DNA from: Salminus brasiliensis
Lineage: Eukaryota; Chordata; Actinopteri; Characiformes; Bryconidae
Length of the DNA stretch: 64,000 nt
Reading direction: 5' to 3'
Assembly: GCF_030463535.1 (NCBI RefSeq)
Contig: NC_132878.1
Location: 38,548,761-38,612,760, forward strand
Shown here: in pieces, positions 24,231-61,479 of the stretch
How positions within the stretch are numbered: the stretch's first letter is position 1
How the letters are laid out: each line of letters opens with the position of its first letter
Position numbers and translations under genes: made by a program
Notes under the pieces: model-generated
Databases searched by the model: none
What the model was told of the DNA's origin: nothing
Seen by the model: only the letters and a program-made list of their open reading frames with translations

Positions 24231-24274
<44 letters not shown>
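24192..24274. repeat. (CTGC/CTGT)n microsatellite abutting the sesn1 splice donor
   Basis: Read on the minus (sesn1) strand this is (GACA)n then (GGCA)n, starting within about 5 bases of the donor GT at 24279-24280. Confidence 0.95.
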
Positions 24275-24278
<4 letters not shown>

Positions 24279-24280
24279 AC

Positions 24281-24535
24281 CTGAATGCTCCGGAGTAGCC
24301 AGATGCACTTCTCCCTCACGTCGTCGAACGGACACCTCCTGGACAGCATGAGGATGCGTGCCAGTATGTGATTGAGGTCGCTGGCTGCTGGGGAGTAAGG
24401 GGTCTCTGGGACAGGTCCTATACTCTCCACTCTCTTCATCACCTCCTGCTTAAGGCTCTCCATGGCTGCGTCTCTGGAGCCAGCATCACGACTCGCCAAC
24501 CCTTCCCACGTTGCCACACCGTCTCTGCCGTCCAT
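24281..24535 (-). CDS. sesn1: Sestrin-1, first coding exon (partial gene)
   Basis: Eighty-five codons from ATG (24535) to an in-phase donor (CAG|GTGAGA, GT at 24279-24280). The protein matches the N-terminus specific to the long vertebrate SESN1 isoform, with WEGLASRDAGSRDAAMESL near the start and ILMLSRRCPFDDVREK near the end. SESN2 and SESN3 lack this segment. In human the next exon begins ELGIRIP after the same ...SIQ junction. The ATG has A at -3 and G at +4, and an in-frame TAA lies shortly upstream. Known of the family: stress-induced, p53- and FOXO-responsive proteins that bind GATOR2 to restrain mTORC1 and support antioxidant defence. The catalytic-like alkylhydroperoxidase-fold domain and the leucine-binding domain are encoded by later exons not found here, so the gene is partial. 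Read-through beyond the donor encodes only DRQT repeats. Confidence 0.88.
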
Positions 24536-24573
24536 CTTTGTGATTGGTATTCTTGAGCTTTAGTCCTGGTGGG
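24536..24573 (-). other. sesn1: sesn1 5' leader part of the coding exon
   Basis: A pyrimidine-containing stretch followed by TGTTGTCACAG gives a possible acceptor (AG complement at 24574-24575), so the coding exon may carry 38 bases of leader joined to an upstream non-coding exon. If it is not used, the promoter lies immediately upstream. Confidence 0.35.
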
Positions 24574-53530: not shown

Positions 53531-54956
53531 TGGAGCATTTCATGCACTGCTGTTGTTCTCATCTGTGTGGCAGCACAACACAAGCGTGTGCGTTTGGCTA
53601 TATATTTAGCTTTTTGGGGGCACTAAATGTCCCATGGATTGCTTTTTGTTTTTTGAGGTTAGGGGATGAAATGCACCCAGCTGGTGGTACACCAACAGCT
53701 CTGTTCCCTCTTTCACCCGAAATGAGAAGAATGTCCGCTAGTCATCCACATGTGCTTCATGGACCGAAGCCAAGCAGACGAATGATCACCGGAAGACATG
53801 CCATTTATTGAAAACACACAAACAAAAAAACAACCTCCATTATCATCATGTGCCATTAAGAAAATCACTGCAATCACAAAAAAAGATGTGGAAAAAGTAT
53901 TCAGTCTTTTTGCATTTGAATCTTATGTCTTATAAACAGTCTGAAAATGTTGTTGGACTTGGACCAACTGGTTAAAATCACCTCTTCTTTTTCCCAGTGT
54001 TAGTCTTTTGATATTCATTCCATACTTCCATTCAACTTTTAGCTACTTAAGGGTGCAAAATAGGGCAAAATCCAAACATGAATAGCAGTAGATTAGCCAG
54101 TGGAATAGCTTAACTAACCCAACGTGCCTTGGAATTCTTAGGAATTCTTCTGTTATTAAAGGAATTAGTAGCAATTCTACTGTTATTAAATAGTAGAGAT
54201 TTTACTAAGGGGTACCCTATGAAGTCCTAACCCAAAGCCTTTAACCACAGGCAGAATTAAAACTAGCATTACATCAGAGAATCTAGCCTGAAAACATCTC
54301 CTTGAAACACTGGATGGCACTTTTCAAAGAAATGATCAACTTTCTGAAATGAATATTGAATCAATCTGCCGTTGACTAAAACTAAATTGATGCTCTGTTT
54401 AAAGTTGGCTTGTCGTCCCTCTACATAAGAAGGAAGCACCACCTGTTGGTTTATGTTTACAGAGCTCTGTTGAATAAGCGTCCTCTATACATCTCACCTC
54501 TGCTTACTTTCAGAATGAATGAGATAAAAGATTGTCTAGTTGGGTGATATTCTTATCTACAGGATTTGGTAAGAATTGCATTTTCATGCAATGCTCTGTT
54601 AGTGCAGTCTGACTTAGGGACTGAGGGACAAAATAGGCATTTTGATACCTCTACTACCTTTTAGTAAATGTAGTAAATTTGAACTACTTAAAGACTTCAA
54701 AGTTTTACTTTGTTTTACTAAGTTTTATTTTTTTTTATTATTAATTCATGCTTTATTTGATATATTGCTCTCAGGGTTTAGATATTCTATGCAATTATAG
54801 TTCTATGGTTAATTAAAGCACATTTTTTTAGACTTTATCATGTGTTGTATGTATGTATGTATTTTACTATTTATTACAGTGCACCACTGTAAAAAAAAGA
54901 CCTTTGTCTCAAAGGGTCAATCAATCAATTAATCAATTAACAAAACAAACAATTGC

Positions 54957-54958
54957 TA

Positions 54959-54992
<34 letters not shown>

Positions 54993-54993
54993 G
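54957..54993. repeat. (ATT)n microsatellite
   Basis: About 12 ATT units. Confidence 0.9.
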
Positions 54994-55070
54994 ATCTGAA
55001 TGCAATCTCATGCACGCTCTACCAAGATGTGGTAATGTTGTAACTGACGAGTAAGCAAGGGGGGAGGAGG

Positions 55071-55075
<5 letters not shown>

Positions 55076-55116
<41 letters not shown>
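55076..55116. repeat. (GA)n microsatellite
   Basis: About 20 GA units at the edge of the grm1 upstream region. Confidence 0.95.
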
Positions 55117-55118
<2 letters not shown>

Positions 55119-55119
55119 T

Positions 55120-55845
55120 CTCACTGGTTGAGTGGTGTAAACTGAAGTATCACATCCCAGCACCGGCTGCTCCAGAAGCTGGGAAGGCGATGCATGAAGG
55201 GCTCAGGTGCGTAGCTCCCAAATTCCTCTACAGACGCCAGACCTCCTGACCGGCGCGTTCTCCCGCTGCTGGCCAGATGTGAAGGAACGCGTTATTTACT
55301 GTTATGCTATATGGCCATTCAGCTACACGGTGGGGTCGCTGCATCTGCTGAACGGGTAAAGCTGGCGAGCTTAGCAAACGCGTGAGTGGGAAGGAGAAGA
55401 CGACCGCGCACTGTGATGAATTGTCATTCTCGAGACGGCTCGTCTTGAACGTGGTTCAGTAAAAGCTGCTATAGGTCGCAGTGTGAGGAGGACCGATGCT
55501 GCATACAGAGGCTCAGCGGTGTACAGAGAGGACCCGTGATGGAAATCAGTATTGGGTTTATTCGCGTTGCGAGAACGGTGAAGCTGCTGATTTGGCTGAT
55601 CTAGTGTAGAGCACGGGGCAGTTCTGCTTTCACCTTCAGGACGCGTGAGGTGTCCGTGTGCGCTGTCCGCGGTGCTGAAACTGGCTGCAGGGCGACTGGG
55701 AACCCCAAAAAGGTCGATTTTGGTTTGGTGTTCCCTCGCTGGTGTACAGCTACAATACAGCATAAAATGCAAGCTGATCGTAGAGCGGTGGATGGCTTCG
55801 AAGCTGTGCTAGTGCAGTTTTATTTTGCACAGTGAATGGTGCAAG
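55120..55845 (+). promoter_or_regulatory. grm1: Candidate grm1 promoter and leader exon
   Basis: About 700 bp that is GC-richer and rich in CpG, 3.5 kb upstream of the grm1 coding exon, with an RE1 site inside. Possible splice donors on the + strand are CAG|GTGCGT (55207), GC|GTGAGT (55382) and AAG|GTAGGT (55846). One of these could end a leader exon joining the acceptor at 59310. I cannot choose between them by sequence. Confidence 0.45.
55659..55679 (-). promoter_or_regulatory. grm1: RE1/NRSE (REST binding site)
   Basis: The minus strand reads TTCAGCACC-G-CGGACAGCG-CA, agreeing with the canonical 21-bp RE1 (TTCAGCACC-N-CGGACAGCG-CC) at all positions except the last. Both half-sites are intact with canonical spacing. 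REST silences neuronal genes in non-neuronal cells, which suits a glutamate receptor. REST control of mammalian Grm1 has been described, as far as I recall. Confidence 0.8.
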
Positions 55846-55979
55846 GTAGGTGTGTGCCCCAAAAACTTTTAGATGGGTTAATTGAAGGAGCATTGGTCCA
55901 TGCTGAACAGGCTCTTTACACAGTATAATCTCCAGAGCTGCGAGCGAACTGTGTAGTGCTGTACTGCTCATTTAATTGA

Positions 55980-58900
55980 ACAGTGATTGATTCACTCCTA
56001 CAGTACTGAACTCACTTGTAGTGTCTAAATCAGTCTTATTGTGGTGGGTTCGCTCTCTCAATGCTGTTTGTACTCTCGCAGTGTTGAGTTCACTCTTGCA
56101 ATGTTGAAATAATTCTACTCTTCTGCACTGAAATAATGATGCACTTCATTTTTCACAGTTCTACGTGTCAGTCAGTTTTACATGAATAAAGGTCAACTGA
56201 AAAAACACTGACAATTTTTTAAATCAGTATTGCAGTTTTTAATTCAGCCTTATCAATGATGTTACTCCTTGAGTATAGAAATCACTCTTAACAGTGTTGG
56301 GTTCTCTATTGCAGTGTAGAAATCACTCTTAGAGGTGGTGGATTCTCTATGGCAGTGTAGAAATCACTCTTAAGGTTGTTGGATTCTCTATGGCAGTGTA
56401 GAAATCACTCTTAAGGTTGTTGGATTCTCTATGGCAGTGTAGAAATCACTCTTAACAGTGTTGGATTCTCTATTGCAGTGAAGAAATCATTCTTAGAGGT
56501 GGTGGATTCTCTATTGCAGTGCAGAAATCACTATTAACAGTGTTGGATTCTCTATTGCAGTGAAGAAATCATTCTTAGAGGTGGTGGATTCTCTATTGCA
56601 GTGCAGAAATCACTCTTAACAGTGTTGGGTTCTCTATTGCAGTGTAGAAATCACTCTTAGAGGTGGTGGATTCTCTATTGCAGTGCAGAAATCACTCTTA
56701 ACAGTGTTGGGTTCTCTATTGCAGTGTAGAAATCATTCTTAGAGGTGGTGGATTCTCTATTGCAGTGCAGAAATCACTCTTAACAGTGTTGGGTTCTCTA
56801 TTGCAGTGTAGAAATCATTCTTAGAGGTGGTGGATTCTCTATGGCAGTGCAGAAATCACTCTTAACAGTGTTGGGTTCTCTATTGCAGTGCAGAAATCAC
56901 TCTTAACAGTGTTGGGTTCTCTATTTCAGTGTAGAAATCATTCTTAGGGGTGTTGGATTCTTTGTTGCAGTTCAACAGTGTTGGGTTCTGAGAGGTGGTG
57001 GATTCTCTATGGCAGTGTAGAAATTATTCTTAACAGTGTTGGATTTTCTGTTGCAGTGTAGAAATCACTCTTAACTGTGTTGGATTCTGTGTTGCAGTGT
57101 AGAAATCACTCCTTACAGTGTTGGGTTCTCGGTTGCAGTGTAGAAATCACTCTTAACAGTCTTAGATTCTTTGTTGCAGTGTAGAAATCACTTTTAAGGT
57201 TGTTGGATTCTCTATGGCAGTGCAGAAATCATTCTTAGGGGTGTTGGATTCTCTGTTGTGGTGTAGAAATCATTCTTAACAGTGTTGGATTCTCTATTGC
57301 AGTGTAGAGATCACTTCTAAACAGTGTTAGATTCTCTGTGGCAGTGTAGAAATCACTCTTAATGGTGTCGATTTCTCTGTTGCAGTGTAGAAATCACTCT
57401 TAATGGTGTTGATTTCTCTGTTGCAGTGTAGAAATCACTCTTAAGGGTGTGGATTTCTCTGTTGCAGTGTAGAAATCACTCCTAACAGTGTTGGATTCTC
57501 TGTGGCAGTGTAAAAATGACTCTTAATGGTGTTAGATTCTCTGTGGCAGTGTAAAAATCACTCCTAACACTCTTAATTCTCTATTGCAGTACAGAAATCA
57601 TTATTAACAGTGTTGGAATCTTAAGGGTGTTGGTTTCTCTGCAGCAGTGTAGAAATCATTCTTAGGGGTGTTGGATTCTCTGTTTCAGTGTAGAAATCAC
57701 TCTTAAGGGTGTTGGATTCTCTGTTTCAGTGTAGAAATCACTCTTAAGGGTGTTAGGTTCTCTGTTTCAGTGTAGAAATCACTCTTAAGGGTGTTGGATT
57801 CTCTGTTTCAGTGTAGAATCACTCTTAAGGGTGTTAGGTTCTCTGTTTCAGTGTAGAAATCACTCTTAAGGGTGTTAGGTTCTCTGTTTCAGTGTAGAAA
57901 TCACTCTTAAGGGTGTTGGATTCTCTGTTTCAGTGTAGAAATCACTCTTAAGGGTGTTAGGTTCTCTGTTTCAGTGTAGAAATCACTCTTAAGGGTGTTG
58001 GATTCTTTGTTTCAGTGTAGAATCACTCTTAAGGGTGTTAGGTTCTCTGTTTCAGTGTAGAAATCACTCTTAAGGGTGTTGGTTTCTCTGTTCCAGTGTA
58101 GAAATCACTCTTAAGGGTGTTAGGTTCTCTGTTTCAGTGTAGAAATCACTCTTAAGGGTGTTGGATTCTCTGTTTCAGTGTAGAAATCACTCTTAAGGGT
58201 GTTAGGTTCTCTGTTTCAGTGTAGAAATCACTCTTAATGGTGTTGGATTCTCTGTTTCAGTGTAGAAATCACTCTTAAGGGTGTTAGGTTCTCTGTTTCA
58301 GTGTAGAAATCACTCTTAAGGGTGTTGGATTCTCTGTTTCAGTGTAGAAATCACTCTTAAGGGTGTTAGGTTCTCTGTTTCAGTGTAGAAATCACTCTTA
58401 AGGGTGTTGGTTTCTCTGTTCCAGTGTAGAAATCACTCTTAAGGGTGTTAGGTTCTCTGTTTCAGTGTAGAAATCACTCTTAAGGGTGTTGGATTCTCTG
58501 TTTCAGTGTAGAAATCACTCTTAAGGGTGTTAGGTTCTCTGTTTCAGTGTAGAAATCACTCTTAAGGGTGTTGGATTCTCTGTTTCAGTGTAGAATCACT
58601 CTTAAGGGTGTTAGGTTCTCTGTTTCAGTGTAGAAATCACTCTTAAGGGTGTTAGGTTCTCTGTTTCAGTGTAGAAATCACTCTTAAGGGTGTTGGATTC
58701 TCTGTTTCAGTGTAGAATCACTCTTAAGGGTGTTAGGTTCTCTGTTTCAGTGTAGAATCACTCTTAAGGGTGTTGGATTCTCTGTTTCAGTGTAGAAATC
58801 ACTCTTAAGGGTGTTAGGTTCTCTGTTTCAGTGTAGAAATCACTCTTAAGGGTGTTGGATTCTCTGTTTCAGTGTAGAAATCACTCTTAAGGGTGTTGGA

Positions 58901-59090
58901 TTCTCTGTTTCAGTGTAGAAATCACGCCTAACAGTGTTTTACTTTTTTACTCTTAGTGTTGAATTCACATATGCAGTGTTGAATTAACTCGTAGTGTGCT
59001 GATTTCACTGTTTCAAAGTTAAATTCTCTCTTACAGTGTCAAGCTCATTCTAAGAGTGGTAAAGTCTCTCTTGCAGTGTGCGTTTCAGTG
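55980..59090 (+). repeat. 41-bp tandem repeat array with diverged flanks
   Basis: Core 56272-58940 holds about 65 copies of a 41-bp unit (AGAAATCACTCTTAAGGGTG then TTAGGTTCTCTGTTTCAGTGT). Three zones differ. In 56272-56990 units ending TATTGCAG alternate AACAGTGTTGGG and GAGGTGGTGGA, giving an 82-bp dimer. In 56990-57660 copies are mixed and more diverged. In 57660-58940 units are nearly identical, with GGATTCT and AGGTTCT variants that often alternate and some one-base (AGAATC) deletions. Diverged CAGTGTTGAATTCACTC-like pieces flank the core on both sides. The array lies in the presumed leader intron of grm1. Confidence 0.95.
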
Positions 59091-59255
59091 TTCATTTGCG
59101 TCAGCGGGGCTTAAATAGACACTGTAGTTGTTCCTCTATCACTGAAGGTCTGTCTTCCACGCTGGGGAGTTTGCTGCGCGCGGTTGGATAATTGGGGATG
59201 TTTAAAGTGTTACACTTTCTCTGGCCTACTTCTCTTTCGCGCACAGCCTCTAACT

Positions 59256-59310
59256 GTCTGTTCTCGCTCTCTCTCTCTCTCTATATCGCTCTCTCTCTCT
59301 CTCTCTCCAG
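59256..59310 (+). promoter_or_regulatory. grm1: grm1 3' splice site made of (CT)n
   Basis: Two CT microsatellites interrupted by ATATCG run directly into CCAG|GTGGTGG. The AG at 59309-59310 is the probable acceptor for the exon with the start codon. Confidence 0.6.
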
Positions 59311-61410
<2,100 letters not shown>

Positions 61411-61479
61411 TCTGTCTGGCTGCACTTGTCTGTTCGACACTGACTCTTTGTATTAAATGAAGAAACTGAAATTGGCAGT

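Follow-up and report, generated by a model that had tools for sequence, protein, structure and literature searches.

In this work, we describe a binding site of the RE1/NRSE kind upstream of grm1 in the fish Salminus brasiliensis, which by its letters is a real, near-ideal RE1 and is very likely functional. We hold it highly probable that this site is bound by the fish REST protein, as predicted, and that it would keep grm1 silent outside neurons. It is a known kind of site, and it lies at a gene that REST is known to target in mammals. Since REST control of mammalian Grm1 has already been reported, what is added here are the sites at a grm1 duplicate and at grm5: by pattern matching, each group I gene found in this genome has an RE1 near its first exon, and the control receptors have none in the stretches read.

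The features to which we refer are the following, in positions of the window, that is, the whole stretch of 64,000 nucleotides that was analysed:

55201 to 55800, no strand: CpG-rich block that contains the RE1, taken from its composition as the putative promoter and first non-coding exon of grm1
55207 to 55212, plus strand: second strongest predicted donor, CAG/GTGCGT, from splice weights
55659 to 55679, minus strand: RE1/NRSE TTCAGCACCGCGGACAGCGCA, 14/14 core positions, its core at 55663-55678 being the same as one REx2 element
55671 to 55679 and 55662 to 55668, minus strand: left and right half-sites of the RE1
55846 to 55851, plus strand: strongest predicted donor of 55000-59450, AAG/GTAGGT, from splice weights
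56272 to 58925, plus strand: 41-base minisatellite, about 65 copies, most of the predicted grm1 intron 1
59293 to 59310, plus strand: strongest predicted acceptor, polypyrimidine tract and CAG/GTGG, from splice weights
59422 to 60145, plus strand: grm1 first coding exon, with the ATG at 59422, a predicted donor at 60146 and the N-terminal ligand-binding domain

The site TTCAGCACCGCGGACAGCGCA differs from the pattern TTCAGCACCNNGGACAGCGCC by a single mismatch, at the last letter. In 100 dinucleotide-shuffled copies of the window, this pattern had no match with three mismatches or fewer. The 21-mers of both strands were scored over a core made of positions 2-9 and 12-17, following the definition given in PMC1794552, and over 19 informative positions, both middle letters being set aside. 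The site has 14/14 of the core and 18/19 of the informative positions, and the runner-up in the 64 kb has 11/14 of the core, so the window holds a single RE1. Both half-sites are intact and are joined by the canonical two-letter linker (TTCAGCACC-GC-GGACAGC); at the less constrained ends (positions 1 and 18-21), only position 21 is off consensus, with an A for a C, and A is the third commonest letter there (15/97 genome sites, among the matches listed). The preliminary description, which had announced a near-perfect RE1 at 55659-55679 with both half-sites intact, is borne out on these points. Its count of 20 matching positions out of 21 is true when both middle letters are ignored, and it is also true with the AC-linker consensus quoted from PMC3529185 when position 10 alone is ignored. 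It had placed the site 3.5 kb upstream of the ATG; upstream it is, at a measured distance that is slightly larger, 3743 bases.

The gene downstream of the site is grm1 as judged from its protein sequence, in agreement with the name first given to it. Indeed, the frame of its first coding exon carries the receptor ligand-binding domain PF01094 (E 2.1e-39, Pfam), and the closest of the solved structures is mGlu1, with 363 bits versus 341 for mGlu5. Further upstream, Cep57-like exons are found at 29.8-32.3 kb of the window. A frame at 24242-24559 had no match in a PDB search, and the window had no Rfam match at gathering scores.

The control of mammalian Grm1 by REST, which the preliminary description had given as reported, is documented in two reviews (PMC9496915, PMC8345431). 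As they relate it from the work of Crepaldi et al. 2007 and Lee et al. 2012, the start codon of mouse Grm1 is preceded, at 5 kb or at no more than 5 kb, by an NRSE, the binding of NRSF to this NRSE explains why the gene is silent in BHK and NIH3T3 cells, and results in human melanocytes were similar to those for mouse Grm1; PMC4192595 has the same premise of a REST-controlled Grm1. The fish site is alike in that it belongs to the same gene and precedes the start codon by no more than 5 kb, a likeness in ATG distance that is drawn from the wording of the reviews rather than from the letters of the mammalian sites. It differs in that the grm1 duplicate of the fish has an RE1 too. For grm5, PMC2782136 lists Grm5 among the REST/CoREST-bound genes, so that a group I receptor is among the genes with bound promoters there, whereas grm1 is absent from that text. 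No report on fish grm1 and REST appeared in the literature searched, whose reach left out most subscription papers.

A parallel in a teleost is the zebrafish REx2 element, described in PMC3531662 as two 16-letter cores that are 27 bases apart, which silences non-neuronal expression in zebrafish and is relieved by rest knockdown. The 16-letter core of the window, TCAGCACCGCGGACAG, is letter-identical to one REx2 core, and the grm5 core, TCAGCACCACGGACAG, to the other. REx2 thus acts through Rest in a teleost with a core identical to that of the window, but as a pair of cores, whereas the window has a single site. According to the portion of PMC3531662 used here, the core of the window type (with a GC linker) was tested only within the pair, the single test being that of the grm5-type core, and the three top-ranked cores are stated as shown to bind Rest. 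The second-ranked one contains accATGg, which fits the core of the grm1 duplicate as compared by that part alone. The same principle is found in PMC3529185, with the full 21-letter consensus, a rest morpholino and a rest mutant.

The window RE1 is also a member of a genome-wide and non-random set. The 18-letter RE1 core TTCAGCACCNNGGACAGC has 396 exact matches in the source genome (1.066 Gb), versus 0 for its reversed control pattern in the same 1.066 Gb, and 0.6-1.7 would be expected according to the composition of the window or of the block. The free positions and flanks were analysed in 97 of the 396 sites, taken from 100 matches listed, leaving out the window's own site and two sites of one cluster. 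Among these listed matches, positions 10, 11, 19, 20 and 21 prefer A, T/C, G/A, C and C, with 0.22, 0.48, 0.47, 0.28 and 0.35 bits respectively, and positions -11 to 0 and 22 to 33 have at most 0.16 bits, so that the signal stops at position 21; when sites with at least 70% alike flanks were merged, 92 were left and the values were nearly the same. Because the free positions follow the RE1 and the signal ends at 21, these sites look like 21-letter RE1s, that is, like sites maintained by a protein whose reading spans 21 letters.

Some of the exact cores belong to repeats, tandem or inverted, and the 396 may therefore include cores that are not under selection. A tandem array at L073:1-283 (G000:C4:3073890-3074172) has a period of about 41 bases with a unit that is itself RE1-like, and it holds four exact 18-letter cores within 183 bases; at L076 (C4:5534695-5534852), two exact cores are separated by 40 bases and accompanied by a piece of a third. 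At L010:2973-3103 (G000:C1), a 64-base inverted repeat, whose arms are 98% complementary and separated by a 3-base spacer, has an RE1 core in each arm and resembles a palindromic element by which RE1s could be spread. Two more places among the 97 sites listed have the very same 21 letters as the window RE1, namely L013:2998-3018 (G000:C1:61024998-61025018) and L033; a reading frame at 908-1744 of L013 is putatively of the forkhead type, as judged by eye.

The first coding exon of grm1 had 87 matches in the genome. The second one is 82% identical and is another mGlu1 (376 versus 342 bits against solved structures), and the third is 69% identical and is mGlu5 (389 versus 342 bits). The 10 kb upstream from the start of each of these coding exons were scanned. 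The RE1 of the grm1 duplicate, ATCAGCACCATGGACAGCATT, has 14/14 of the core and 15/19 overall, is antisense to the gene like that of the window and lies 364 bases before the ATG; that of grm5, TTCAGCACCACGGACAGCTCC, has 14/14 of the core and 18/19 informative positions, and lies 671 bases 5' of the ATG, in sense orientation. By pattern match, grm1, its duplicate and grm5 therefore all have an RE1 with an intact core in the 4 kb that precede the start codon. In both paralogs, the predicted order is donor, RE1, acceptor and ATG, with the RE1s 267 (duplicate) and 266 (grm5) bases 3' of the predicted donor, although this near-equality may be accidental, since the grm5 donor was chosen in a near tie with another (4.82 versus 4.84). 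Between RE1 and ATG, the duplicate has an acceptor that ranks third in its stretch, and grm5 has the two best of its own.

The next ten mGlu-like first exons, which are 41-47% identical to the query and one of which has an internal stop, were taken as controls. When the grm1 first coding exon was taken with two flanks of 1.5 kb (L089), it had no RE1, the best core being 10/14; as such short flanks would miss the window's own site, the controls were extended to about 5 kb. In nine of them, the best core was 11/14 over the match and 1.5 kb on each side, and 12/14 over 3.5 kb further upstream, where one stretch is all N; the tenth reached 10/14 over 5 kb upstream. Thus, a core of 13/14 or 14/14 occurs in 0/10 controls in the stretches read, nine of them covered over about 5 kb upstream. 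The comparison of 3/3 group I genes with 0/9 controls gives 0.0045 in a one-sided Fisher test, and when the site of the window, from which the comparison had started, is dropped, 2/2 versus 0/9 gives 1/55, or 0.018. A dense cluster of weakly matching receptor-domain frames, many with stops, was seen at 32.46-32.87 Mb of G000:C13; it is possibly a class C receptor family, possibly of chemosensory receptors.

How the group I genes came by these sites can be read in two ways. One is separate gain at each of the three loci, grm1, its duplicate and grm5, by convergence rather than by inheritance from one ancestral site, and we give this about an even chance. The flanks of the three RE1s do not align beyond shuffles (of 60 shuffles, 4, 8 and 18 score at least as high), nor did the block align significantly with the DNA upstream of either paralog. 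This is what separate gain would leave, but non-coding flanks of old duplicates are seldom alignable anyway. The grm5 site is sense and the other two are antisense, and the ATG distances differ (3743, 364 and 671 bases); on the other side, grm1 and its duplicate share the orientation, all three RE1s are predicted to fall within the first non-coding exon or shortly 3' of it, and the mouse Grm1 NRSE is at a comparable distance in the account of the two reviews (PMC9496915, PMC8345431). A frog study found that NRSE locations in homologous regions are not conserved with human and that 8% of target genes are shared (PMC4430910), which also favours separate gain. The preliminary description had held that REST control of grm1 is ancient, and the unalignable paralog flanks, the opposite orientation of the grm5 site and the frog locations make this no more than a possibility. 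An ancestral origin is possible: in its full form, in which all group I REST silencing would derive from a single RE1 at the first intron or leader of the common ancestor of grm1 and grm5, having survived the early vertebrate and teleost genome duplications and never having been present in group II/III, we regard it as a tentative reading that is less likely than not.

The place of the site within grm1 depends on the CpG-rich block around it. This block has 52-56% GC and a CpG observed/expected ratio of 0.87-1.18, and the ratio is 0-0.41, in 200-base steps, over 54001-55200 and 55801-59000; from its composition and position, it is the predicted promoter and leader of grm1. Splice sites were scored over 55000-59450 with simple weights from general splice-site frequencies. 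With the strongest donor (55846), and given a transcription start upstream, the RE1 would lie within a non-coding exon, and the predicted acceptor ends at 59310, 111 bases 5' of the ATG; with the second donor (55207), it would lie 452 bases into intron 1, again given an upstream start, which is the arrangement predicted for the grm1 duplicate and grm5. Strict patterns for the RFX X-box, TATA, CCAAT, Sp1, NRF1 and full CRE had no match in 55000-59450, and half CRE sites occur there at 55045 and 59099 only.

It is conceivable, though unlikely in our estimation, that the RE1 is real but lies away from the grm1 promoter, as a separate silencer or in the first exon of another transcript, with grm1 starting elsewhere. 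The ATG is 3.7 kb away from the block, CpG richness is also seen at 59001-60200 around the first coding exon (observed/expected 0.69-1.34), and the donor at 55207 would put the RE1 in an intron. Against this, the intron is bounded by the donor and the acceptor that are predicted most strongly, the paralogs share the predicted order of donor, RE1, acceptor and ATG (with an acceptor that is only third best in the duplicate), and three reading frames between the Cep57-like exons and grm1 yielded no Pfam family above the cutoff. As for the earlier claim that the block is the true promoter and leader of grm1, its CpG richness, the strongest donor and the acceptor just before the ATG agree with it, and it stands as a prediction: the paralogs suggest that the RE1 may be intronic, and the region of 59001-60200 could hold another promoter.

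Several repeats accompany this region. An (AG)21 tract (55075-55116) lies just 5' of the CpG-rich block, and an imperfect ATCT array of 1.2 kb (60211-61417) directly 3' of the first coding exon. Two consensus units of the minisatellite had 27 matches in the genome, all in 56272-58925, a result that does not prove its absence elsewhere. It contains 60 loose acceptor-like patterns (T-rich, [CT]AG, then TG), so that potential decoy 3' splice sites abound in the intron.

That the window RE1 is a chance match, being one 21-letter match in 64 kb picked by a reader, is very improbable and was rejected on sequence, as the 20-letter pattern is expected about 6e-7 times (window dinucleotides) or 6e-6 times (block composition) per 64 kb, and any one gene has a chance of about 0.2-1% of having a core within 5 kb, or about 6e-9 to 8e-7 for all three genes, these ranges running from a genome count of 396 (measured, 18-letter core) to one of 2000 (assumed, 16-letter core).

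Some points count against silencing of grm1 by REST through this RE1, which is nonetheless our preferred explanation. Beside the paired test of the window-type core and the repeats that hold some of the exact cores, the RE1 of the duplicate is weak outside the core, and pattern matching carries a load of false positives, 41% in one human scan as quoted in PMC1794552, yet the chance expectation is small here. Following general knowledge of REST, the protein present in non-neuronal and progenitor cells would bind the window RE1 and, once bound, would recruit the Sin3/HDAC and CoREST complexes to the nearby grm1 promoter, from which these complexes would strip the active chromatin marks; the drop of REST in neurons would then release the promoter. 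By analogy with mouse Grm1, all three group I receptors would likely be kept off outside neurons by their RE1s.

A near-perfect RE1 at fish grm1 extends the predicted REST control of this gene to teleosts, and the site offers a small and deletable element for a fish model. It was unexpected that three group I genes should have an RE1 where nine comparable receptors have none over 5 kb. With this contrast among the receptors read, the ancestry of REST control of group I receptors can be addressed by scanning gar, shark and tetrapod genomes, and, if the single ancestral site were true, an inherited regulatory switch would define the group I mGlu subfamily.
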